NCBI GenBank assembly: GCA_002170005.2
Contig: NHGT02000026.1
Span: 41,463 to 75,884, forward strand
Length of the DNA stretch: 34,422 nt
Direction: 5' to 3'
Origin: a bacterium TMED144
GTDB taxonomy: Bacteria > Fidelibacterota > Marinisomatia > Marinisomatales > TCS55
Below are positions 5,372 through 28,688 of the stretch, in pieces. Made by a program: the position numbers and the translations under genes. Under the pieces are notes generated by a model. It saw only the letters and a list, made by a program, of their open reading frames with translations, did not search any database and had not been told where the DNA came from. Each line of letters starts with the position of its first letter. The stretch's first letter is position 1.

Positions 5372-6355
5372 ATGAAAAATGCATTCATTACTGGTGCTTC
5401 AGGCCATTTGGGGTCCTGCTTAGTTCGCTATCTATTAAAAGATAATTGGATTGTAAAATGTTTAATTAATAAGGATACTAAATCAATTGATGATTTAAAT
5501 GTTGAGAAAATTTACGAAAGTATATTTGACGAGCAAGCTTTAGCAAAAAATATGATCGATTGCGATGTTGTTTTTCACCTTGCAGCGATTGTTGCTCAAG
5601 AGAAAGTTGATTATAAAAACATGATAAAAGTAAATGTTGGTGGAACTAAATCCATTTGCAATGCTGCTTTAAAATCCAAAATAAATAAACTTATCTATTT
5701 TTCTAGCATTCACGCTTTTAATCAATCCCCTTATCAATCTGTTCTAAATGAAAAAAGACAGCTTGTAGATACCCAATCAGCATCACCCTATGATTTTACT
5801 AAGGCATTGGCTCAAAAAGAAGTTTACAAAGCTATTGAAAAAGGGCTAGATGCTAGCATCTTACACCCAACTGGCGTCATTGGACCCTATGATTACAAAC
5901 CCAGTAGAATGGGTCAAATGATTTTAGATATAAAAAATAAGAGAATGCCTCTTGCTATTAAAACAGGTTACAATTGGGTCGATGTAAGGGATGTATGTTC
6001 TGCTGCCATAAAATGTGTGAAGCATGGCAAAAAAGGACAAAACTATATAGTATCAGGAGACTGGCGATCTTTCAAGGATTTATCAATTTTAATTCAAGAA
6101 AAGGTTAATAAAAAAATATACTATGGTGAAATACCATTTCTTTTTTTGTACATTATCCTTCCATTCTCAAAGTTGTGGTCCTTGTTATCAAAAAAAAGGG
6201 AGCTAATAAATTTGGGGAGTATTTACACACTTAAAAATCAGTGCTCAAAAATTAGTTACGATCTAGCTAAAAATAAGTTAAATCACAACCCTCGCAGTAT
6301 TGATTCAACAATCACTGATACATTATCCTGGTTTGATTCTGAATATGATATTTGA
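5372..6355 (+). CDS. NAD(P)-dependent epimerase/dehydratase family protein (3-beta-HSD / dihydroflavonol reductase-like extended SDR)
   Basis: N-terminal TGASGHLGSCLVRYLL Rossmann motif, DVVFHLAAIVA, YDFTKALAQKEV (YxxxK). Confidence 0.85.
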   Translation: MKNAFITGASGHLGSCLVRYLLKDNWIVKCLINKDTKSIDDLNVEKIYESIFDEQALAKNMIDCDVVFHLAAIVAQEKVDYKNMIKVNVGGTKSICNAALKSKINKLIYFSSIHAFNQSPYQSVLNEKRQLVDTQSASPYDFTKALAQKEVYKAIEKGLDASILHPTGVIGPYDYKPSRMGQMILDIKNKRMPLAIKTGYNWVDVRDVCSAAIKCVKHGKKGQNYIVSGDWRSFKDLSILIQEKVNKKIYYGEIPFLFLYIILPFSKLWSLLSKKRELINLGSIYTLKNQCSKISYDLAKNKLNHNPRSIDSTITDTLSWFDSEYDI

Positions 6356-7112
6356 TTATTCAAATTTCAATGTAATTATTACAGCTTGGACTCTTCTATC
6401 TTTCTTGGTTTTTGTTATTTTATATTTCGTTAAAGCACCATATGGTAAACACGATCAAGAAGGATGGGGAATAAGAATTCCCGCTAGACTGGGATGGATT
6501 GCTATGGAAATGCCAAGCTGGATTTTAATGATAATATTTGCTTTGTTATCATTGAAAAATGGGTTTAGAACAGTGAGCTTGATAATGGCATGTTTTTGGA
6601 TTTTACACTACTTTCATAGAAGCATGATCTGGCCATTTAGGGCAAAGATTTCGCACAAGAAGATGCCGCTTTCTATCGCGTTTTTAGCCGGGGGATTTAA
6701 TATTATAAATACTTCTATAAATGCCGAATGGATTTTTTTTTTAAGAGAACCTTACCCACTTTCCTGGCTCTATTCTATTCAATTTGTTGGTGGTATGATA
6801 ATTTTTTTTACTGGGTTCATCATCAATATATCATCTGATAATATTTTATTTAGACTAAGAAAAGGTGGAAAAGGTGAGTACAGCATTCCATATGGAAAGC
6901 TTTTTAATCGCATATCATGCCCAAATTATCTTGGTGAAATACTAGAATGGTTAGGTTGGGCAATTATGGTATTATCATTTGCTGGGTTTTCGTTTTTTGT
7001 GTGGACTTTAGCAAATCTAATACCAAGAGCGCTGTCAACCCATAAATGGTACAATGAGAATTTTCAAGATTACCCTAGGGATAGAAAAGCCCTAGTGCCT
7101 TACCTTTTTTAA
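6345..7112 (+). CDS. 3-oxo-5-alpha-steroid 4-dehydrogenase (steroid 5-alpha-reductase) family membrane protein
   Basis: Multi-TM protein ending in the family C-terminal pattern (CPNYLGEILEWLGWAI...NLIPRALSTHKWYNENFQDYPRDRKALVPYLF). Start at ATG 6345, overlapping the upstream gene; the track starts at 6300. Confidence 0.8.
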   Translation: MIFDYSNFNVIITAWTLLSFLVFVILYFVKAPYGKHDQEGWGIRIPARLGWIAMEMPSWILMIIFALLSLKNGFRTVSLIMACFWILHYFHRSMIWPFRAKISHKKMPLSIAFLAGGFNIINTSINAEWIFFLREPYPLSWLYSIQFVGGMIIFFTGFIINISSDNILFRLRKGGKGEYSIPYGKLFNRISCPNYLGEILEWLGWAIMVLSFAGFSFFVWTLANLIPRALSTHKWYNENFQDYPRDRKALVPYLF

Positions 7113-17024: not shown

Positions 17025-18176
17025 CTATCTACCATATTTCATATGAGCCTTGGTAAATGTATCCGAAGCTAAAGCTGATAAAAGCGATGTCTCGAGTGCA
17101 AGAGCAGAAGCACAAATAATTTCAGCTAGTTTTTTGGATGAATTCTCACCTTCATGGCATCCTAAAAGCTTAAGATTTTGCTGTTGAGCCAAAAGACGAG
17201 TACCACCTCCTACAGTGCCTACAGTCATACTAGGCATTGTTAATCTAAATTTAACACCTTCATTAACTGATTCTATTTGAAAGTGGCCAATTGAATTCTC
17301 AGCTACACAAGCAGTGTCTTGTCCAGTAGCTAAATAAATTGCTGTTAAGGCATTTGAAATATGTAAATGTGTACCTTGTGTACCAGCTAACCGAGAAGTT
17401 GTGGGTCCAAGCTCCTGATACTTTTCAAGCTCAGATATATCGACATTAAGTATTCTTTGGACAATAGAGCTTTTTATGGTTGTTTCAGCGATGACACTAT
17501 GCCCTCTGCCCATAATCATGTTTCTAGCTGAAGCTTTTTTATCACTATTGAAACCTGACTCTAAAAAGAAATCCGCTCCAGTTTTTTCTTTTATATAATC
17601 ACATGCAACTTTAGCTGCTAATGTCACCATATTTTGCCCAGCAGCATTACCTGTATCTAAAACAAAATCCAATATTACATAGTTTTGAATTGGGTATTGA
17701 TCAATTCTTAACAACTTTCCATAATTTGATGTAGAGTCTGAGACATTTTTTATATCTTGGTGGTGCTTGTTAACCCATTGTATAAAATCAGAAGATCTAT
17801 TCAAATCTTCAAAAATAAAAACTGGGGCTCTTGAGAGTTCTTGCTTTATGTGCTTAACTGTGACACCTCCACACCGTTGAGCTGCCATCATGCCTCTATT
17901 CATTGATAATGCAAGAGTCCCCTCGAGAGTACATATTGGTACATGAAATTCGCCTTGAGCATAATCACCATTTATATCTAATGGGCCTGCAATTGCCATT
18001 GGAATATTCATAAATCCGATATGATTTTCTATAATACCTTTTAAATCTTCCGGCTCATTTTGAAGATTTGAAGAATATTTAAAGTTGATTTTAGAATTTA
18101 ACCAATCTAAACGATCTTGCGTATCCTTGCTATCATACCCGCTAGGAATTTTTGTCTGTTGTTGCTTCTCAGGCAT
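17025..18176 (-). CDS. Hydroxymethylglutaryl-CoA reductase-like protein
   Basis: ENHIGFMNIPMAIAGPL, CTLEGTLALSMNRGM, DKKASARNMIMGRGHSVIAE, GQDTACVAE, MTVGTVGGGTRL, C-terminal TKAHMKYGR with the expected catalytic His. Confidence 0.9.
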   Translation of the reverse strand: MPEKQQQTKIPSGYDSKDTQDRLDWLNSKINFKYSSNLQNEPEDLKGIIENHIGFMNIPMAIAGPLDINGDYAQGEFHVPICTLEGTLALSMNRGMMAAQRCGGVTVKHIKQELSRAPVFIFEDLNRSSDFIQWVNKHHQDIKNVSDSTSNYGKLLRIDQYPIQNYVILDFVLDTGNAAGQNMVTLAAKVACDYIKEKTGADFFLESGFNSDKKASARNMIMGRGHSVIAETTIKSSIVQRILNVDISELEKYQELGPTTSRLAGTQGTHLHISNALTAIYLATGQDTACVAENSIGHFQIESVNEGVKFRLTMPSMTVGTVGGGTRLLAQQQNLKLLGCHEGENSSKKLAEIICASALALETSLLSALASDTFTKAHMKYGR

Positions 18177-19625: not shown

Positions 19626-20534
19626 ATGAATAATAAATACGATATACTATTCAAACATCAAGTACCTAACTCAATGGATGGAATAATTATTTTTGGAAAG
19701 GATGATAATTATTTAAAGCCTCAGCAATATAATAAAATAACAGATTTAGAAAATGAAATTTGGGCTGAATTATATAATAACGTTTCAGAACTACAGAAAA
19801 AATATGCATCTAAAGAATTTTTAGATGGATTGAAAAAACTTTCTATACCAAAAGATAATTTTCCAGATTTTAAATTAATATCAAAGGAGCTTTTTAATGC
19901 ATCCAAATGGGAACTTATTTCAGTAGCTGGTTTTTTAACAGAAGAGCTTTTCTTCGACCTGAATTCGCAGAGAAAATTCCCAGTAACGGATATCATAAGA
20001 AAATCCCCACGATTTGACGAAAAATACTATGGAGAAGATATTGTTAATGATGAAGGTTATACACCTGAGCCAGATATTTTTCATGATGTACAGGGTCATA
20101 TTCCTTTACTAGCAAACACAGAATATTCTAACTTTTTACATAAAGTTGGTATTCTTGGTGACAAAATCATAAAAAATGAGCTTGGCTTATCAAAAGATTT
20201 GATAGATCACAATCTAAAGCGCTTACAAAATTTTGCATGGTGGACATATGAATTTGGACTTTTAAAAAAACAAAATTTAAATTCAGTTAATGACATTGAC
20301 TATGAAATCTACGGATCTGGAATTTTATCATCGCAATCAGAAATATTAAATATTGTTAATTGTGCTAAAGATAAATCTTACCAATCAGTTTTCCTGCCCT
20401 ATGATATAGATGAAATTGTATTGACAAGTTTTAACTACTCTAACATTCAAGATAGATATTATGTCATTGATTCAATGAGTTCACTGTATCAATCGTTTGA
20501 TGACAACCAGAACTTGTTTTTTTACCAAGGTTAG
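19626..20534 (+). CDS. Biopterin-dependent aromatic amino acid hydroxylase (phenylalanine 4-monooxygenase-like)
   Basis: YTPEPDIFHDVQGHIPLLAN iron-binding motif; FAWWTYEFGLL; YGSGILSSQSE. Confidence 0.9.
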   Translation: MNNKYDILFKHQVPNSMDGIIIFGKDDNYLKPQQYNKITDLENEIWAELYNNVSELQKKYASKEFLDGLKKLSIPKDNFPDFKLISKELFNASKWELISVAGFLTEELFFDLNSQRKFPVTDIIRKSPRFDEKYYGEDIVNDEGYTPEPDIFHDVQGHIPLLANTEYSNFLHKVGILGDKIIKNELGLSKDLIDHNLKRLQNFAWWTYEFGLLKKQNLNSVNDIDYEIYGSGILSSQSEILNIVNCAKDKSYQSVFLPYDIDEIVLTSFNYSNIQDRYYVIDSMSSLYQSFDDNQNLFFYQG

Positions 20535-20537
20535 AAT

Positions 20538-21089
20538 ATCAAAAAATTTATTCTTAAAATTTTTTTTATAAGCGCTGTTAGCTATTTTTACAACTGCTCA
20601 AATAATTCATTGTCTAATTATAATAATGATGATCTTATTTTTAAATCTGATTCATTATTGAAAGCACATTCAAACGATGAACAAGTAAAAAAACTTATTC
20701 TAGCTGCTAAAGTTAAAGAGTTAAAAAAAAATTTAAATTCAAATCTGTATATTGAAATTTTGAAAATAGATCCCAAAAATCCTATTGCATTGTATGTATT
20801 TCATATGCAAGCGGGAAAATTGCATCATCAGAAAAGCTACAAAAATGGCCAATGGGATGCCATACAATCATTTCATAAAGCTGCAGCACAAATAGATACC
20901 CTTGGAGAGCCGTATTTTTGGATAGGTAAATCCTATGAAAAAAAAGATGAAATGGATTTCGATTCGGCTTTAGAATCTTATGATAAAGCATTAGACTTAT
21001 TTTTAGCTGATTCTACTAGAAAAATGGTAGAAACTGCATTAAAAGAGCTAACTAAGAAAAAAACAATCTATAAAAATTTCTGGAAATGA
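20538..21089 (+). CDS. TPR-like lipoprotein; likely AUC start
   Basis: Upstream of the track start (TTG 20610) the frame reads (ATC)KKFILKIFFISAVSYFYNCSNNSLSNYNNDD..., a signal peptide with Cys lipobox. AAGG lies 7 nt upstream of ATC 20538. TPR-like C-terminal part. Confidence 0.65.
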   Translation: MKKFILKIFFISAVSYFYNCSNNSLSNYNNDDLIFKSDSLLKAHSNDEQVKKLILAAKVKELKKNLNSNLYIEILKIDPKNPIALYVFHMQAGKLHHQKSYKNGQWDAIQSFHKAAAQIDTLGEPYFWIGKSYEKKDEMDFDSALESYDKALDLFLADSTRKMVETALKELTKKKTIYKNFWK

Positions 21090-21237: not shown

Positions 21238-22467
21238 ATGGCAAAAAAAATAAGAATGTATTTCTCGTTCTCTAGAGCGACGTACATATTCTTTGCGTCT
21301 GCATTGTTTGCGCAAGAACCACAAACCATAAGCGGTACTTTAACAGATACCAATAACGAGCCAGTAGTTCAAAGCACAATTCTACTTTTGAAGCCTGATG
21401 GCACTGAGCACAAACGAACCGAAACCTCTAAAAAAAGACTTGGCAGAGGGGGTGGTAAATTTGAATTTAAAGATGTTGAGCCAGGCAATTATACTTTACA
21501 ATCTGATGGTGGTGAATTAGGCAGCCTCAATTTTGAACTGGAAGTAATAGATGCTGAAATTAAACTTGGTGATATCAAACTTTCTTTATCGGATGCCTCA
21601 TCGGAAAACACCAATTCTCAAAATCAAGAAATGCTACCTGAAATGGTTAGTACTAGTGACCCAACTGAATCAAATAATCAAGAAAATAGCGAACAAACCA
21701 ATGGCATCAATGAAAACAATATCACAAATGCTTTCACTCCAGATCCCAACAAAGACTACATATTAAATGAACTAAGCTTTGAGATAAAGAAAATGACAGC
21801 TGAAGTTAAATATTTAAACGAAGAATTAGAGGACCTCAAAGCTCTGAGCAAAATGTGGGTCAATCCATTGGCTATATATTCGAAAGAAATTATCATGAAA
21901 AATGGGTCGACAGTTTTTGGAAAAATTGTGTACCAAGACGAAGAACAGCTAAAGGTAGAATCTCTTGTCGGTTATCTTATTATTAATAGAAGCGATGTTG
22001 TAAGAATTGTTGATAACGTTGTAACTGAAGAACAGGCAGAATATGTCCCGGAGCAAGTTAGAGATAGCTATACTCCACCTCCTATGCCAAAACTTGCTCA
22101 ACCACAGTACACCTCTGCAGAAAGAAGCAACGATAAAAAATACTCTGCAAATTGTGTTCTTTTAGGAAATATAACAGAAAAAAAAGATGCACAAGGAAAC
22201 ATAGTTTTCAATGGTGAGATAAAAAATATTGGAGGAAGAAGATCGGACTTTGTTAAAGTAGATTTTGTTTTTAGAAAAAATTGGAGTGGAGAAACAAAGA
22301 CGCTGACAACATTTGTTAGAGGAGGTTATCATACTTTTGATTCAGGCATAACAACTGATGCTACATTATTACCTGGCGCTACTGGTGCATTCGAATTGTA
22401 TGTGCCCAATGATTTTGGATCATTCATTGGTTACTCATATGTAATTGATTGGGAAGAATATGAATAA
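21238..22467 (+). CDS. Exported protein with carboxypeptidase-regulatory-like and FxLYD-like domains
   Basis: N-terminal hydrophobic signal then ISGTLTDTNNEPVVQSTILLLKPDG...GKFEFKDVEPGNYTLQSDGGE; coiled-coil middle; C-terminal beta domain (NCVLLGNITEKKDAQGNIVFNGEIKNIGGRRSDFVKVDFVF). Confidence 0.7.
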   Translation: MAKKIRMYFSFSRATYIFFASALFAQEPQTISGTLTDTNNEPVVQSTILLLKPDGTEHKRTETSKKRLGRGGGKFEFKDVEPGNYTLQSDGGELGSLNFELEVIDAEIKLGDIKLSLSDASSENTNSQNQEMLPEMVSTSDPTESNNQENSEQTNGINENNITNAFTPDPNKDYILNELSFEIKKMTAEVKYLNEELEDLKALSKMWVNPLAIYSKEIIMKNGSTVFGKIVYQDEEQLKVESLVGYLIINRSDVVRIVDNVVTEEQAEYVPEQVRDSYTPPPMPKLAQPQYTSAERSNDKKYSANCVLLGNITEKKDAQGNIVFNGEIKNIGGRRSDFVKVDFVFRKNWSGETKTLTTFVRGGYHTFDSGITTDATLLPGATGAFELYVPNDFGSFIGYSYVIDWEEYE

Positions 22468-23302
22468 AAAATTAATTAAGTTTTTTTCACACATTTCATT
22501 TATCGCGGCGGTTGCAAACAGCAGTAGTTATGCACAGGAAACTCCGCTCTCTGAAATCTTTTTTCTAGATTTAGGTATTGTAATTGAGCCTTCCAAAGGA
22601 GATGAATCGTATACTAGAAAAATAGACAAACCCTCTGAGGAGGTAAGCTTTAAAATAAAGAAAGTTGAAAGCGGAAGTGTAATGATGGCCTCATCTAAGG
22701 AATTATTATCAACTTTAGATAGAGTCAATGAGAGATTAAATAATTTAGAAAAATCTTTTCAAACTGAAATGCGGGCTCTCCATGACAAAAATGCTGAACT
22801 TGCAACTGCTTTAGATAATATTAATAATTTTAACTTTTACGAGGATGAACCAGGCCTTGTAGAAAAAAATATTTTACTACCTAACAAACAAAAAAACACT
22901 AATAAAATAGTTGAGAAAGTTAAAATGCCAATTTTCAATAAAGCAGTTTATATGACTGGAGTCTTTGCTTATCAAAGAGAGGACTATGAGGATGCACTTG
23001 AATATTTTTCAAGATTGAACACTTCAATTGCTAGCAACGAAGACAAAGAAAATATTTTTTACTGGATGGCAGACTCTTATCAGCGATTAGGTCAATATGA
23101 TGATGCACTTAACCTCCTAGAGAAAATCATGGAATTTGGCGATTTAAGAATCGATGATGCTCTTATTAAAAAAGGATTGCTTCATAGAAAATTAGGCGAT
23201 GAAGATTTAGCGCTAGCAGCATTCAATGACGTAGTTTTGGGACATCCTAACAGTGAATATTTACGACTTGCTCAAATGGAATTAAAAAAAATAGATAAGT
23301 AA
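22460..23302 (+). CDS. Periplasmic TPR protein (YbgF/CpoB-like organisation: coiled coil plus TPR)
   Basis: ATG 22460 overlapping the upstream gene; signal peptide ending SSYAQ; coiled coil; TPRs (VFAYQREDYEDALEYFSRL, WMADSYQRLGQYDDALNLLEKI). The track start is TTG 22445. Confidence 0.7.
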   Translation: MNKKLIKFFSHISFIAAVANSSSYAQETPLSEIFFLDLGIVIEPSKGDESYTRKIDKPSEEVSFKIKKVESGSVMMASSKELLSTLDRVNERLNNLEKSFQTEMRALHDKNAELATALDNINNFNFYEDEPGLVEKNILLPNKQKNTNKIVEKVKMPIFNKAVYMTGVFAYQREDYEDALEYFSRLNTSIASNEDKENIFYWMADSYQRLGQYDDALNLLEKIMEFGDLRIDDALIKKGLLHRKLGDEDLALAAFNDVVLGHPNSEYLRLAQMELKKIDK

Positions 23303-23303
23303 T

Positions 23304-24647
23304 ATGCTAAAGCTCATCAGGTATATAATTGCTATTACTATTATCATAAATAGTTCTTATAGTGCAACCAGGATTGCTTATTTAAGACCTGGTCCAATGA
23401 TGAAAATTCCTTTTTCTATGATTGGTACATCCCCTTATCTTTTTACAGCAGGTTTTGGGACAGAATTCCATAACTTGGCACCTATTAATACAGCAAAAGG
23501 ATTTTATTATAATATGCAAGCTGGGGGCTGGCTTTTAGGTTTTTCAACTGGCTCTGCTGGAGATACGACTAATATAGCAAATTTAGACGTTAGCACGTAT
23601 AGGGCCCCTGTAGAGTTTGGCTTTCATCTTCAGAGGCAATTATACTCAAAAGATAACATATCATTTTCGCTAGGGTTACAAGATATTGTATTTGAAAACA
23701 AGACTAGCGGATTAAACTTGGACCCCAATGAATTATCATTTTTCGGGGTTATAAGTAGCGAACAAATGATACGCGACTTCAAAGTTAATACATTTCTTGG
23801 CTTTGGAACTGGGGGATTTGGAGCTATCGATACAATTGAAGTCGATTCTCTAAAAACTTCGGGCACCTCTGCAGGTGTTTTTATGGGATTAATTTTCAAT
23901 ACTCCTTATCTTGATAAATGGGGAGGAATAGATATTGTGGGTGAATTCGATGGTAATGGCATCAATGTGGGACTCCGCATCCCCCTTACCTCGGATTATC
24001 GCCTGAACCTAGGATTCACCCACATAGAAAAATTACCAAATTGGAAAGATAGATACTGGGAAGGACACGCGGCGTTTACATTGGGTTTTGAGATTTCAGC
24101 TGCGCGAAGCTCTGGGGTAAAAATTCCAGGAGGAGGGCCCTCTCCAAATCTTTTACCTAACGATAAAATTTCTCAATCTAATGTTGATACAACACTAATG
24201 ATAGCTGATTACGCGGTAAATACACTAAGAGATTCAATGGGAATGATGAATAATGAAATGCGCAACTTAATGATTAGACTTGCCGCAATGGAACAACACT
24301 CAAAATTTTTAGAGGATTCTTTAAAAGCTGTTAAATTAAACAATAATGTAAGTGAACAAAAAATGAATGATGCAATGCGTCATTTATCTAGATCATTAAG
24401 GTATTTTTACGCTGGAAATTACAGATCATCGTTGCAAGAAGTAGAATCTGCCTTAGAATTAAACCCTAATCTTGCACTAGCATATGCAAGAAGAGGGTCC
24501 ATATATTATAAATTGGGAGATGTTCAAAGAGCGACTATCAATTGGAATCTTGCTCTAAGAATGGACCCTGAATACGATGACGTGAGAAATGTTTTAAAAG
24601 CCTTGCATGAAAATAGGCTTAAATCCACAACAATGATTGAGGAATAA
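23304..24647 (+). CDS. Outer-membrane beta-barrel-like protein with C-terminal TPR
   Basis: Signal peptide; Gly/aromatic beta-rich N-terminal ~270 aa; C-terminal TPR (LRYFYAGNYRSSLQEVESALELNPNLALAYARRGSIYYKLGDVQRATINWNLALRMDPEY). Confidence 0.6.
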   Translation: MLKLIRYIIAITIIINSSYSATRIAYLRPGPMMKIPFSMIGTSPYLFTAGFGTEFHNLAPINTAKGFYYNMQAGGWLLGFSTGSAGDTTNIANLDVSTYRAPVEFGFHLQRQLYSKDNISFSLGLQDIVFENKTSGLNLDPNELSFFGVISSEQMIRDFKVNTFLGFGTGGFGAIDTIEVDSLKTSGTSAGVFMGLIFNTPYLDKWGGIDIVGEFDGNGINVGLRIPLTSDYRLNLGFTHIEKLPNWKDRYWEGHAAFTLGFEISAARSSGVKIPGGGPSPNLLPNDKISQSNVDTTLMIADYAVNTLRDSMGMMNNEMRNLMIRLAAMEQHSKFLEDSLKAVKLNNNVSEQKMNDAMRHLSRSLRYFYAGNYRSSLQEVESALELNPNLALAYARRGSIYYKLGDVQRATINWNLALRMDPEYDDVRNVLKALHENRLKSTTMIEE

Positions 24648-24649
24648 AT

Positions 24650-25426
24650 ATGGATTTTGCTACCCTTATTGGAATTTTACTTGGATTAGGTGCGATCTTA
24701 GGAAGTATATTTTTAATGACACCAGACATTGGTATGTTTGGATCTCTATCAAGCTTTGGTATTGTTTTTGGAGGCATGATAGCATCGGTGTCAGTTGCTT
24801 TCCCTTTAAAAGATGTTTTGCAACTTGGTGCAGCTATGGGAGCCGTTTTCAAGGGTGGTGGTGATGCCCTTGGTGGATATGTTGAAGAAGCAGTTGAAGC
24901 AGCTGAGGTAGGTAGAAAGGGGACTGCTGATTTAGAAAAACATATTGACAGTGTTAAAAGTTATTTTTTTAAAGATGGACTCCAAATGGTAATTGACGGT
25001 TATTCATTAGATGAATTATCAGAAATTTTAAATACTAGAATTGATTATAGAGAACTTCGTGAAAATACACAGGCTGGTTTATTTAAATCGATGGGTGTTA
25101 TGTCACCAGCATGGGGCATGGTTGGAACCCTGATTGGTCTGGTAGTTATGCTATCGGGATTTGGCGGTGAAGGTGGTGGAACAGAAACGCTTGGTGCAGG
25201 TATGTCAGCTGCGCTTATTACAACATTTTATGGTGCTGTATTTGCAAATTTATTTTTTCTACCTATGGCTGATAAAATCAAAACAAGAATTACTTTTTCA
25301 AGCACATTACAAAATTTACAATTAGAGGCCGCTAGATTAATCCACCAGAAAAAACACCCGATAATTGTTAGGGAAAAACTAAATTCATTTATTCCTCCTA
25401 AAGAGTGGAAAAAAGAAGAAGGTTAA
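24650..25426 (+). CDS. motA: MotA-like stator protein (MotA/TolQ/ExbB superfamily)
   Basis: TLIGILLGLGAILGSI N-terminus, MGVMSPAWGMVGTLIGLVVML, GAGMSAALITTFYGAVFANLFFLPMADKIK. Confidence 0.92.
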   Translation: MDFATLIGILLGLGAILGSIFLMTPDIGMFGSLSSFGIVFGGMIASVSVAFPLKDVLQLGAAMGAVFKGGGDALGGYVEEAVEAAEVGRKGTADLEKHIDSVKSYFFKDGLQMVIDGYSLDELSEILNTRIDYRELRENTQAGLFKSMGVMSPAWGMVGTLIGLVVMLSGFGGEGGGTETLGAGMSAALITTFYGAVFANLFFLPMADKIKTRITFSSTLQNLQLEAARLIHQKKHPIIVREKLNSFIPPKEWKKEEG

Positions 25427-25429
25427 TAA

Positions 25430-26218
25430 GTGGCTGCTACCCCCCAAGAAATTAAAAAATTTGAAGCCAAAGGAAGAGAGCAAGTTGACGAGGGCCTTCC
25501 TGGCTGGTTTGGAACCTTTGCTGACATGATGACGCTTCTATTTGCTTTTTTCGTTTTACTGGCTGCTATTTCTACCATTGACCCAGTAAAACTTCAGAAC
25601 ATGGCTGACGGAATGGGGAAATCTGTTGGCAAAAAGGAAGAGCTTGATAATCAAGCAATGTCATTAGGTGATATTCATAAAGCTGCAACTAAAATGGTTG
25701 AAGAGATGGCAAAGGATTCAGAGAACGGTGAAACGCCTGTTGAGGTCACAACAAGCCCTAAGGGTGTTACTATTGGCATTTCATCAGATATTAGCTTTGA
25801 ATCTGGATCAGCAACAACCAAAGCAGGATTTTTAGAAATTTTAAAAAAAATATTACCAACTATTCAAGAATCATATTTTAAAATAGCTGTTGAAGGCCAT
25901 ACTGATAGTGATCAACTTCCAAAATCATTAAGAAGATTCTATCCAAGCAATTGGGAATTATCTAGTGCAAGAGCTTCCGCAGTTGTTAGGCTCCTTATAG
26001 GTCTTCAAGTCGATCCAACCAGATTAGAAGCAGTAGGTTATGGTGAATTTGTACCTAGGGATAAAAACACTGCAGAGATTATTACCACAGAATTAATACA
26101 AAAGTATAATTCCACACCCCAACAAAAAGCTAGAAATAGAAGAGTGGAGATTACATTTCTTGCGCCTCGCGGTGGACCAGTAGCTAAGTCGATGGATATG
26201 ACTGAAAATGAAGAATAA
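25430..26218 (+). CDS. motB: MotB-like stator protein with OmpA peptidoglycan-binding domain
   Basis: Single TM with ion-binding Asp (WFGTFADMMTLLFAFFVLLAA); OmpA domain (AVEGHTDSDQLP...NWELSSARASAVVRLLI...RLEAVGYGEFVP...RNRRVEITFL). GTG start. Confidence 0.92.
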   Translation: MAATPQEIKKFEAKGREQVDEGLPGWFGTFADMMTLLFAFFVLLAAISTIDPVKLQNMADGMGKSVGKKEELDNQAMSLGDIHKAATKMVEEMAKDSENGETPVEVTTSPKGVTIGISSDISFESGSATTKAGFLEILKKILPTIQESYFKIAVEGHTDSDQLPKSLRRFYPSNWELSSARASAVVRLLIGLQVDPTRLEAVGYGEFVPRDKNTAEIITTELIQKYNSTPQQKARNRRVEITFLAPRGGPVAKSMDMTENEE

Positions 26219-26243
26219 ATTTTATATGAATAAGGGAGTTACC

Positions 26244-27743
26244 ATGAAAAAATGGACTAGAACTGCATTCAAATATACTATACAATTATCAATGACTGGA
26301 TTATTGTTCGGTCAAGCAAGCAGCGGGTATCTAGCTCAAAAATTGATGATAGAAAATAGCTTAAGAACACGAATTTCAGACGCACTAGAAAAAGTCATTG
26401 AAAATAGAAAATATGTTATTGATGTTAGTGTTGATCTCGAACTTAGTAGTGCTGTAGAAAATCAAACTACGTACTCTCCAAATGGTAATTCTTTTGAATC
26501 TTTACAGTCAGTTGATGGTTCGCTGAGCAGAGATGAAATGGCAAACCCAGGTAGCGTTGGATTGCCTATACCGGGATTTGATTTTACAGGGGAAAATCAA
26601 CAGGCAAACACTAGTGCAGCTCAAGAAACTTCAATGGATTCACAACAAAGCGAGAATGTTGTTTCAAGGACTCAAACTGAAATGAGGCCTTCAATGGCAA
26701 GTGTCAGCAATATGGAGATTAGTATCATTTTACAGGAGGGCGCTGCGCCTGAATTAATAGAAAACATTCGCCAGGTTGTTATGGTAGCATCCAGATTTAA
26801 CCGTACGAGAGGTGATGTTTTAAGCATTATGACAGCTAGCTTTAGGGAAAGAAGGGATGAAAAATCTGCAGAGACAGTATTGCTAAAAAATATTGCTGAA
26901 AAATTGGAGTCACTTGAAAGCCAGAGAGAAAGACTTGGTGAAGTAGATTGGAAGCAAGAATTAGATAATTATAAACAAAATGAGGAGGAGAGAAGACAAG
27001 AGGACAGATTGTATTTCCAATCTCAATTAGCTGAATTAGAGAGTTCTGCTCGTGACGAGTCTTACAATCAAGAAAGGCAAGCGATGCTGAGGCAAGACTC
27101 GGTCAGATTGCAAACCTTGAATGAAGAAATTCAAAATCTTAAGTCTTTTTTAGGCGCAGATAATATTTCTGAATCTGAGATGGCTGAAGCCCAAAATACT
27201 GTTCAAGAAAAATTAGTAGAAAAAAACAGTCTTGATGCTCAAATAGAAGAAAAGCTTGCTATGTTAAACCAAGTTCAATCAGAATTAGACACAGCTCCTA
27301 GAGCTGGTATCATGAGCACTAACCCTGGTTTGGTCATCATTTTATCAATACTTGGTGCCTTAGTTCTTATTCTTGGTGTTATATTAATTGTTATACTTAT
27401 GAATAGACCAAAACAACCAAATTTACCGCCTTGGATGATGTACCCGCCAAGACGGCCAAAAAAAAAAGCCAACGCTAGCGGATCACCACAACCAATAATG
27501 ACACAAAATCAACAAGCTCCAACACAGCAGCCATCACCAGCTGAAGATATTCCAGTATTGCAAAGCGAAGTTAACGATATGAAACAAGCCGTTGTATCCA
27601 TGAGCGTTGGGCAACCACAAGCTGCAAACAAAATAGTAAAAGATTGGATTCTCGAGGAGGCCCCTCCTGAACCAGAACCTGCTCCAGTCCCAGAGCCTGA
27701 TGAAGATGAAGGAAAAGGAAAAAAGAAAAGAAAGAAAAAATAA
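26244..27743 (+). CDS. FliF-like MS-ring-related protein lacking an obvious N-terminal TM/RBM1-2 block
   Basis: LRTRISDALEKVIENRKYVIDVSVDLELSS...SNMEISIILQEGAAPELIENIRQVVMVASRFNRTRGDVLSIM resembles the FliF RBM3/collar. Single C-terminal TM (LVIILSILGALVLILGVILIVILM). C-terminal QPQAANKIVKDWILEE resembles the FliG-binding tail of FliF. ATG 26244 has SD GGGAG. Confidence 0.7.
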   Translation: MKKWTRTAFKYTIQLSMTGLLFGQASSGYLAQKLMIENSLRTRISDALEKVIENRKYVIDVSVDLELSSAVENQTTYSPNGNSFESLQSVDGSLSRDEMANPGSVGLPIPGFDFTGENQQANTSAAQETSMDSQQSENVVSRTQTEMRPSMASVSNMEISIILQEGAAPELIENIRQVVMVASRFNRTRGDVLSIMTASFRERRDEKSAETVLLKNIAEKLESLESQRERLGEVDWKQELDNYKQNEEERRQEDRLYFQSQLAELESSARDESYNQERQAMLRQDSVRLQTLNEEIQNLKSFLGADNISESEMAEAQNTVQEKLVEKNSLDAQIEEKLAMLNQVQSELDTAPRAGIMSTNPGLVIILSILGALVLILGVILIVILMNRPKQPNLPPWMMYPPRRPKKKANASGSPQPIMTQNQQAPTQQPSPAEDIPVLQSEVNDMKQAVVSMSVGQPQAANKIVKDWILEEAPPEPEPAPVPEPDEDEGKGKKKRKKK

Positions 27744-27752
27744 GAGGTAGAT

Positions 27753-28688
27753 ATGATCACAGAATACAGCAGATTGTCTGGCCTTCAAAAAGTAGCTATA
27801 CTTTTTTCAATACTTGGAGAAAGTTTAGCACTAAATCTTGTAAATGATCTTGATCAAACTGAAATAAGAAAAATCAGAGCCGCTATGCGAGGAGTAGGAA
27901 ATGTTTCTTTCGCTGTAAAGAAACAAGTTATGGAGGAATTTTATTTCTCCTTTGTAAGTGAAAAATTTCAACCACAAGAAGAAGATAATGAACCAAAAAA
28001 ACCATTTTTATTCTTGAGTGACATTACCGATGAACAGTTAGTAGCTATGCTTTCCAATGAGGATTCTAAAGTCATAGCGATAACCTTAGCACAAGTTGAT
28101 AGCAAAAAAAGGATGATGGTGCTAGACAGAATTGGTGAAGACGAAAAAAATGAAGTTTTATTAAGTATTGGAAACCTTGATGGCGTACCACTTGAAGCTG
28201 TTGTTCAAATTGCCCATCGATTACAAAAGAAGGCCAAAGGACTGCCCAAAACCGTTGCTTTTTCAAGAGGCGGTGGAAAAGATTTGGCTGATTTACTAGG
28301 AGAAATGAATGCTCAAGAAGAAGAGCTATTTATGGCTAATCTTGAGCAAAATGACCCTGATTTAGCTAGTGAAGTTAAAAAATACAGGATAACCTTTGAA
28401 TCAATTTTTGAAATCTTTCCTGACAATCTCCTTCGAGATTTAATGAATGCTGTAGATCTTGATGCTGTAGCGATGGCTTTAAAAGGCATGGATCAGGTAA
28501 TCACAGATAAAGTTCTCGGTGTTCTTCCAAAGAAAAAACAAGCTATGTTTGAGCCCGTAGAGGGAGCTGTACCAAAGAGAGATGTTGATACGGCTCGTAA
28601 GAATGTAGTTTCTGCTGCCAAACAAATGGAAAAAGATGGTGCGTTTAAGCTTGAAGATCTTTTGGGTGGTGGCGACACAGTTGAATAA
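27753..28688 (+). CDS. FliG-like flagellar motor switch protein homologue
   Basis: LSGLQKVAILFSILGESLALNLVNDLDQTEIRKIRAAM resembles FliG_N; ITFESIFEIFPDNLLRDLMNAVDLDAVAMALKGMDQVITDKVLGVLPKKKQAMFE resembles FliG_C; SD GAGG upstream. Confidence 0.88.
   Translation: MITEYSRLSGLQKVAILFSILGESLALNLVNDLDQTEIRKIRAAMRGVGNVSFAVKKQVMEEFYFSFVSEKFQPQEEDNEPKKPFLFLSDITDEQLVAMLSNEDSKVIAITLAQVDSKKRMMVLDRIGEDEKNEVLLSIGNLDGVPLEAVVQIAHRLQKKAKGLPKTVAFSRGGGKDLADLLGEMNAQEEELFMANLEQNDPDLASEVKKYRITFESIFEIFPDNLLRDLMNAVDLDAVAMALKGMDQVITDKVLGVLPKKKQAMFEPVEGAVPKRDVDTARKNVVSAAKQMEKDGAFKLEDLLGGGDTVE

Follow-up and report, generated by a model that had tools for sequence, protein, structure and literature searches.

The window analyzed here, a stretch of 34,422 nucleotides from the bacterium TMED144, encodes an operon in which a flagellar-type MotA-MotB stator and reduced versions of FliF and FliG are combined with an outer-membrane beta-barrel protein and other secreted proteins. 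We believe it likely that the products of this operon constitute a non-flagellar rotary machine, which turns in a single direction and is coupled to an outer-membrane complex. The presence of the operon in genomes devoid of flagellum genes suggests that flagellar motor parts perform a non-flagellar job in these bacteria. The genes of the operon are as follows:

21238..22467, forward strand: protein A, first gene of the operon, secreted, with CarboxypepD_reg-like and FxLYD-like domains (weak family matches)
22445..23302, forward strand: protein B, a secreted, YbgF-like coiled-coil/TPR protein (TPR_6 2.4e-12 in Pfam; ybgF 1.1e-8 in NCBIfam)
23304..24647, forward strand: protein C, an outer-membrane beta-barrel with a helix and a TPR tail, used as the marker of the operon (AlphaFold2 model, Foldseek)
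24650..25426, forward strand: MotA of the flagellar type, with equivalents of R90, E98, P173 and P222
25430..26218, forward strand: MotB, with an equivalent of D32 and an OmpA-type peptidoglycan-binding domain
26244..27743, forward strand: reduced FliF-like ring protein, 499 amino acids from Met13 (YscJ_FliF_C match, Foldseek, invariant Met)
27753..28688, forward strand: reduced FliG with N, M and C domains (Pfam FliG_C 3e-19, FliG_N 2.5e-14 and FliG_M 4.6e-12, all above cut-off)

These genes form a contiguous array in the order A-B(TPR)-C-MotA-MotB-FliF-FliG, with gaps mostly of a few bases, and the same order is seen across the loci examined, namely about 40 loci from other genomes of the phylum, 80 named loci and additional, more divergent ones, some of them cut by contig ends. 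Protein B is present in one or two copies and is not recognized in a minority of loci. The most divergent family (f16) possesses the whole operon, with a FliF that falls below the Pfam threshold. Foldseek searches initiated with the model of protein C recovered OmpG and NanC-type porins, along with TPR structures, and the gene order points to a possible link of FliF and MotB to this barrel. That the ring protein lies outside the flagellar gene set, as part of a phylum-wide outer-membrane-barrel operon, had been overlooked in the initial annotation of this DNA.

Several peculiarities of individual loci were also recorded. In the single-contig genome G195 protein C seems broken: its last 66-77 codons lie upstream of motA (L044, G195:C1:2247500-2266500), a region that corresponds to positions 1-360 of C is situated about 0.5 Mb away (G195:C1:2763659), and neither A nor B stands beside the motor genes, pointing to either a rearrangement or an assembly error. 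Two copies of the operon, or of part of it, are found in G155 (contigs C1 and C14; L064, L065) and in G140 (contigs C7 and C52), possibly reflecting a mixture of strains in the bin. Positions 20610-21089 of the window encode a small protein, with weak TPR matches and no other family found, which precedes gene A in many of the loci from the window's order and was not seen in other classes. Elsewhere in the window are adjacent genes resembling a 3-beta-hydroxysteroid dehydrogenase/epimerase and a steroid 5-alpha-reductase (5372-7112; Pfam Steroid_dh 4.1e-47), which are unusual in a bacterium, an HMG-CoA reductase (17025-18176) and a biopterin-dependent aromatic amino acid hydroxylase (19626-20534).

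The open reading frame of the ring protein spans 26208-27743, and its residues are numbered here with residue 1 at 26208. Since Met13 (26244) is invariant among 25 relatives, 26244 is the probable start. Its segments are as follows:

26244..26312, forward strand, residues 13-35: signal-peptide-like N-terminus (G/S/A at -1 in 92/103 relatives)
26331..26837, forward strand, residues 42-210: RBM3 fold (AlphaFold2 pLDDT mostly >85 outside a loop; 15/15 Foldseek matches to FliF)
26859..27293, forward strand, residues 218-362: Glu/Gln/Arg-rich helical spacer (AlphaFold2 helices, heptad test)
27324..27401, forward strand, residues 373-398: single transmembrane (TM) helix (hydropathy, AlphaFold2 helix)
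27402..27548, forward strand: Pro/Gln-rich disordered linker (AlphaFold2 pLDDT mostly <50)
27549..27659, forward strand, residues 448-484: putative FliG-docking tail, with the motif VVSMSVGxPxxAxxIVxxWL (homology to canonical FliF tails)

Residues 60-212 match YscJ_FliF_C, the RBM3/collar family of Pfam, with an e-value of 2.8e-14. The single-chain AlphaFold2 (AF2) model, built from an alignment of 54 relatives, displays in this region the helix 42-63, the strands 69-79, 83-89, 154-160 and 164-176, the helix 181-194 and the strand 204-210, with mean pLDDT mostly >85 except in a loop at about 90-150. The strands 83-89 and 154-160 form the collar hairpin and are separated from each other by a low-complexity insertion. 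Foldseek comparisons of the model with the PDB yielded 15 matches with E<0.001 (best 1.3e-8), every one of which is a FliF S-ring/RBM3 chain or a FliF model, and an RBM-like fold is thus predicted between the signal peptide and the TM helix. PF01514 (YscJ_FliF, comprising RBM1 and RBM2) has zero matches in the window's genome, and almost no sequence is left in the model between the signal-peptide-like stretch and the start of RBM3. The proposal in the initial annotation that only one RBM is present is hence borne out, and the segment borders that it had guessed agree with the AF2 model to within a few residues.

The hydrophobic stretch at the N-terminus is weak (KD 0.8). A G, S or A precedes a conserved polar residue in 92 of the 103 relatives, and this small residue at -1 fits a cleaved signal peptide, in line with the signal-peptide-like start noted in the annotation, although position -3 usually holds Leu; any cleavage would probably take place before Gln36. 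The single TM helix that it had proposed corresponds to the only strong hydropathy peak (mean KD 3.3 for 373-398, all other peaks being <=1.2) and to a helix in the AF2 model. Its long coiled coil held up only in part: the spacer is helical throughout 218-362 at about 90 pLDDT, and heptad periodicity reaches significance in the helices 322-362 (P=0.005) and 290-316 (P=0.016) and not in 246-280. A heptad test across the entire spacer gave no signal because the spacer helices are out of register with each other. A coiled coil is therefore likely, albeit not a uniform one. The distance between RBM3 and the TM helix ranges from 44 to 210 residues within the reduced FliF family. A minimal form of the ring protein, 386-392 amino acids in length and with a near-zero RBM3-TM spacer, was observed in family f19 (L048, L049, L062).

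The architecture had further been described as rearranged, a characterization that we do not uphold because the order RBM3-TM-tail is the canonical one. This counterpart of the flagellar FliF is reduced and extended rather than rearranged, having lost RBM1-2 and gained a helical spacer of variable length. Nor is it implied that any ring formed by it would have altered dimensions, as had been claimed: the RBM3 of Salmonella FliF forms rings by itself (PMC8786727), and the diameter of the reduced FliF ring may therefore be unchanged, with the helical spacer being expected to change its height above the membrane.

The C-terminal tail is modeled as two helices, 448-468 and 470-483, the latter of which includes QPQAANKIVKDWILEE; this stretch and the motif given above are among the best-conserved parts of the reduced FliF family, and W480 is invariant. 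When a profile of the tail was run over 6447 open reading frames from the sampled loci, 11 of the 32 canonical FliFs were recovered in the top 40 (hypergeometric P 1e-17), each of these 11 being matched at its extreme C-terminus, and profile-profile comparison of the reduced tail with canonical FliF tails using hhalign gave P 6.9e-7. Likewise, comparison of the family profile with PDB sequences aligned RBM3 and then, collinearly, the tail of the Vibrio FliF. Canonical FliF tails co-fold with FliG_N (PMC6079021; structure 5TDY), and the FliG_N domain of the neighboring reduced FliG matches the FliG chain of that FliF-FliG complex (5tdy). As judged from these comparisons, the tail of the reduced FliF and the tail by which canonical FliF docks FliG are homologs. 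Of the earlier suggestion that FliG docking is kept, the homology stands, and docking itself would be its predicted consequence.

Equivalents of R90, E98, P173 and P222 of MotA are found in 99/99 sequences and that of D32 of MotB in 96/96, and the best NCBIfam scores of both proteins are to flagellar stators, the closest models being MotP/PomA and MotD/MotB, respectively. All 81 reduced FliGs examined possess K264, and the position of R281 is occupied by K or R in 81/81. In contrast, the EHPQ motif for docking of FliM is present in 0/81 reduced FliGs, as against 25/27 canonical ones, and its loss fits a ring that would not switch direction. In most reduced FliGs, D288/D289, the acidic pair of the torque helix, and R297 are out of register, with the pair replaced by E-P accompanied by a 4-residue deletion, a feature that counts against the rotary reading. 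The N domain of the reduced FliG is shortened.

Comparison of the window with its sister species gives dN/dS values of 0.018 to 0.067 for six operon genes (0.04 for the FliF-like protein), and on this measure selection on the operon is strongly purifying. The low dN/dS together with the conserved stator and rotor residues indicates that these parts are kept by selection. An alternative view would be that the operon is what degeneration has left of a former flagellum; there are precedents for flagellar remnants (PMC12199754), and the losses of RBM1-2 and of FliM docking have the look of reduction. We consider such a remnant exceedingly improbable, given that the gene order is kept phylum-wide, that dN/dS is about 0.02-0.07 with the stator residues intact, that no frameshifts or stops were seen in the PF08345 matches, that the sequences form a single deep clade in association with non-flagellar genes, and that 31 genomes combine the operon with the full flagellar export genes.

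Using protein C as a marker of the operon (E<1e-60), we detected it in 134 of 199 sampled genomes of the phylum (Marinimicrobia/Neomarinimicrobiota), with FlhA being found in 40; the two occur together in 31 genomes, whereas 103 contain only C and 9 only FlhA. FliM and FliN track FlhA in their occurrence, and most operon carriers lack FlhA or FliM/N, a pattern in which the incompleteness of metagenome-assembled genomes blurs individual absences and not the overall trend. The genome of G017, assembled as one 2.8-Mb contig, contains the operon, has the reduced version as its sole FliG, and lacks FlhA and FliM/N. The flagellated G142 and G112 harbor canonical and reduced sets together. The whole system is absent from small genomes (0.7-1.0 Mb) of family f2 in the window's order, such as G006, G028, G103 and others; since some of these f2 genomes are near-complete, cells of the phylum can do without the operon. 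Searches with protein C across 84,980 species gave 137 matches, of which the best 80 are from Marinimicrobia by title or bear generic labels (FCB group bacterium, bacterium or uncultured bacterium), and a search of plasmids returned only canonical FliG and TPR matches and none for FliF. A further search for relatives yielded sequences from within the order only.

The window's own genome was at one point taken to be non-flagellated, which we rejected upon finding FlhA, FliM and FliN in it. This genome (G000) and its only sampled congener (G131) contain a separate flagellar cluster (G000:C22, L151/L152; G131:C5, L153), with fliK, flgD, flgE, a second motA and motB, fliL to fliR, flhB, and flhA onward, the gene names being based on reading of the region in addition to the FlhA and FliM/N matches. 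Canonical FliF, FliG, FliE and FliI were not found in either genome, and together with the presence of FlhA, FliM and FliN this could be taken to mean that the reduced FliF and FliG serve as the flagellar MS-ring and switch of this genus in place of the canonical ones. However, the absences extend to FliE and a genuine FliI, and the flagellar contigs of both genomes end inside fliK, adjoining the expected position of fliE-fliJ; a shared assembly gap is hence the simplest account of the missing fliE, fliF, fliG and fliI, though an actual loss of these four canonical genes in the genus is possible. Moreover, G142 and G112 carry both sets, and the reduced FliG is without the FliM-docking motif and is found in genomes that have no export apparatus. 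Accordingly, we judge a replacement of the flagellar ring and switch to be very unlikely.

In a phylogenetic tree of FliG, all 28 reduced sequences constitute a single clade (100/100), which a long branch sets far apart from every flagellar FliG, and the flagellar FliGs of the phylum group with those of Bacillota and Pseudomonadota. Thus, the tree supports a single origin of the reduced FliG prior to the spread of the phylum. A tree in which the reduced form arose by duplicating a flagellar FliG of the phylum itself was not rejected (AU p 0.28); as duplication accompanied by fast change is compatible with the data, an older split of the reduced FliG is not proven.

From the identities of the parts, the stator residues, the homologous tail, the gene order, the purifying selection and the absence of FlhA and FliM/N, all of which are backed by sequence or models, we infer a machine that would involve ring assembly, binding of FliG to the tail, rotation, contact with C and a cargo. 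In this machine, MotA and MotB would act as an ion-driven stator anchored to peptidoglycan, pushing a cytoplasmic ring of the reduced FliG, which in turn would be docked via its N domain onto the C-terminal helix of the reduced FliF. The latter would cross the inner membrane once and present a periplasmic RBM3/collar ring raised on the helical spacers. The rotor is predicted to turn one way only, as expected from the absence of FliM/FliN docking, and with RBM1/RBM2 gone it would, in genomes that lack an export apparatus, hold neither rod nor filament. Torque would instead be passed to an outer-membrane complex comprising the barrel C with its TPR tail, the TPR protein B and protein A. Its most likely task would be to move or position components of the cell surface or outer membrane, as in gliding, adhesin movement or envelope maintenance.

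One such output would be a gliding or surface-adhesin motor akin to the Myxococcus Agl-Glt system, in which the rotor would move adhesive surface material by means of the TPR proteins and the barrel. The Myxococcus machinery provides a precedent, with the MotAB-like AglRQS and components spanning to the outer membrane (PMC9120999), and it shares with the operon the kit of an ion-driven motor, TPR proteins and an outer-membrane barrel; also consistent with this output are an adhesin-like beta-sandwich match in protein A and the occurrence of the operon mostly in genomes without flagella. On the other hand, AglRS are generic CCD3 stators (PMC12505986) whereas the operon MotA scores as flagellar, C and A have no sequence kinship to Glt proteins beyond TPR (a GltC match in the operon, at 8.7e-4, is through TPR only), and the literature examined yielded a single isolate of the phylum, Fidelibacter multiformis (AP035449), which is reported to be non-motile (PMC11652737), an observation that also weighs against the rotary machine itself. 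We advance this output tentatively, as a possibility. Alternatively, the motor might pull or turn a trans-envelope complex coupling peptidoglycan and the outer membrane, thereby maintaining the envelope in the manner of Tol-Pal. In keeping with this, protein B scores as YbgF/CpoB, a companion of Tol-Pal, retention of the operon extends across the phylum, its flagellated members included, and dN/dS is low. However, Tol-Pal has no need of a FliF/FliG ring, the operon is absent from the near-complete f2 genomes mentioned above, and a check of the operon genes for TolQ, TolR, TolA, TolB and Pal found none, leaving the YbgF-like TPR protein as the sole Tol-Pal-type match. Taken singly, envelope maintenance is on the unlikely side, though it is the other output that we would put forward for the MotAB-FliG-FliF rotor.

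Comparisons with known systems help place this rotor. The reduced FliF shares with canonical FliF an RBM3 with collar, a TM helix after RBM3, a cytoplasmic putative FliG-docking tail and a gene directly upstream of fliG, but differs in having a signal-peptide-like start in place of RBM1, RBM2 and a clear N-terminal TM, a long helical spacer separating RBM3 from the TM helix, and a gene that does not accompany rod or export genes. Similarly, the reduced FliG resembles the FliG of the flagellar C-ring in its N, M and C domains, K264, the basic residue at R281 and its position downstream of fliF, but it lacks EHPQ, is shortened in the N domain and at the end of the torque helix, belongs to a separate clade and is found mostly in carriers without FliM/FliN. 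The stators have the charged interface residues, the D32 and the OmpA domain of flagellar MotAB/PomAB (the FIT group), but their genes adjoin those for outer-membrane and TPR proteins instead of flagellar genes. Agl-Glt, too, is a flagellum-free machine in which an ion-driven motor is joined by components in the periplasm and outer membrane, but its stator is of the generic type, it has no known FliF/FliG, and its machinery travels along the cell. Tol-Pal likewise has an ion-driven inner-membrane motor, a YbgF-like TPR protein and an outer-membrane partner, but uses TolQRA instead of MotAB and no ring proteins. RBM domains make periplasmic rings outside flagella in SpoIIIAG and SctJ/PrgK; these are not known to have a FliG-docking tail or a MotAB or FliG partner, and no FliF or FliG is known in the Tol, Exb, Agl and Gld ion-driven motors that operate outside flagella.

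In the open literature, where absence is weak evidence as preprints and most subscription papers lay outside the scope of the search, we found no description of a system of this kind. A survey from 2025 noted rotor proteins without filaments and left their role open (PMC12199754). The ring protein is a variant of FliF, and the system appears to put the stator-rotor pair of the flagellum to a use that has not been described. We see about an even chance for the broader reading, in which an outer-membrane complex is driven throughout the phylum, with neither secretion apparatus nor filament, by a rotor composed of MotAB, FliG and a FliF ring with a single RBM; this would represent a distinct class of ion-driven trans-envelope rotor, perhaps ancient enough to inform the origin of the flagellar rotor. 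If true, it would show that the flagellum's torque-generating half is able to exist independently of the export apparatus, the rod and the filament, and the RBM3-only ring with its FliG tail offers a minimal natural ring as a testable object. It would also provide a candidate mechanism for the Marinimicrobia, a marine phylum that is abundant but has hardly any cultured members.
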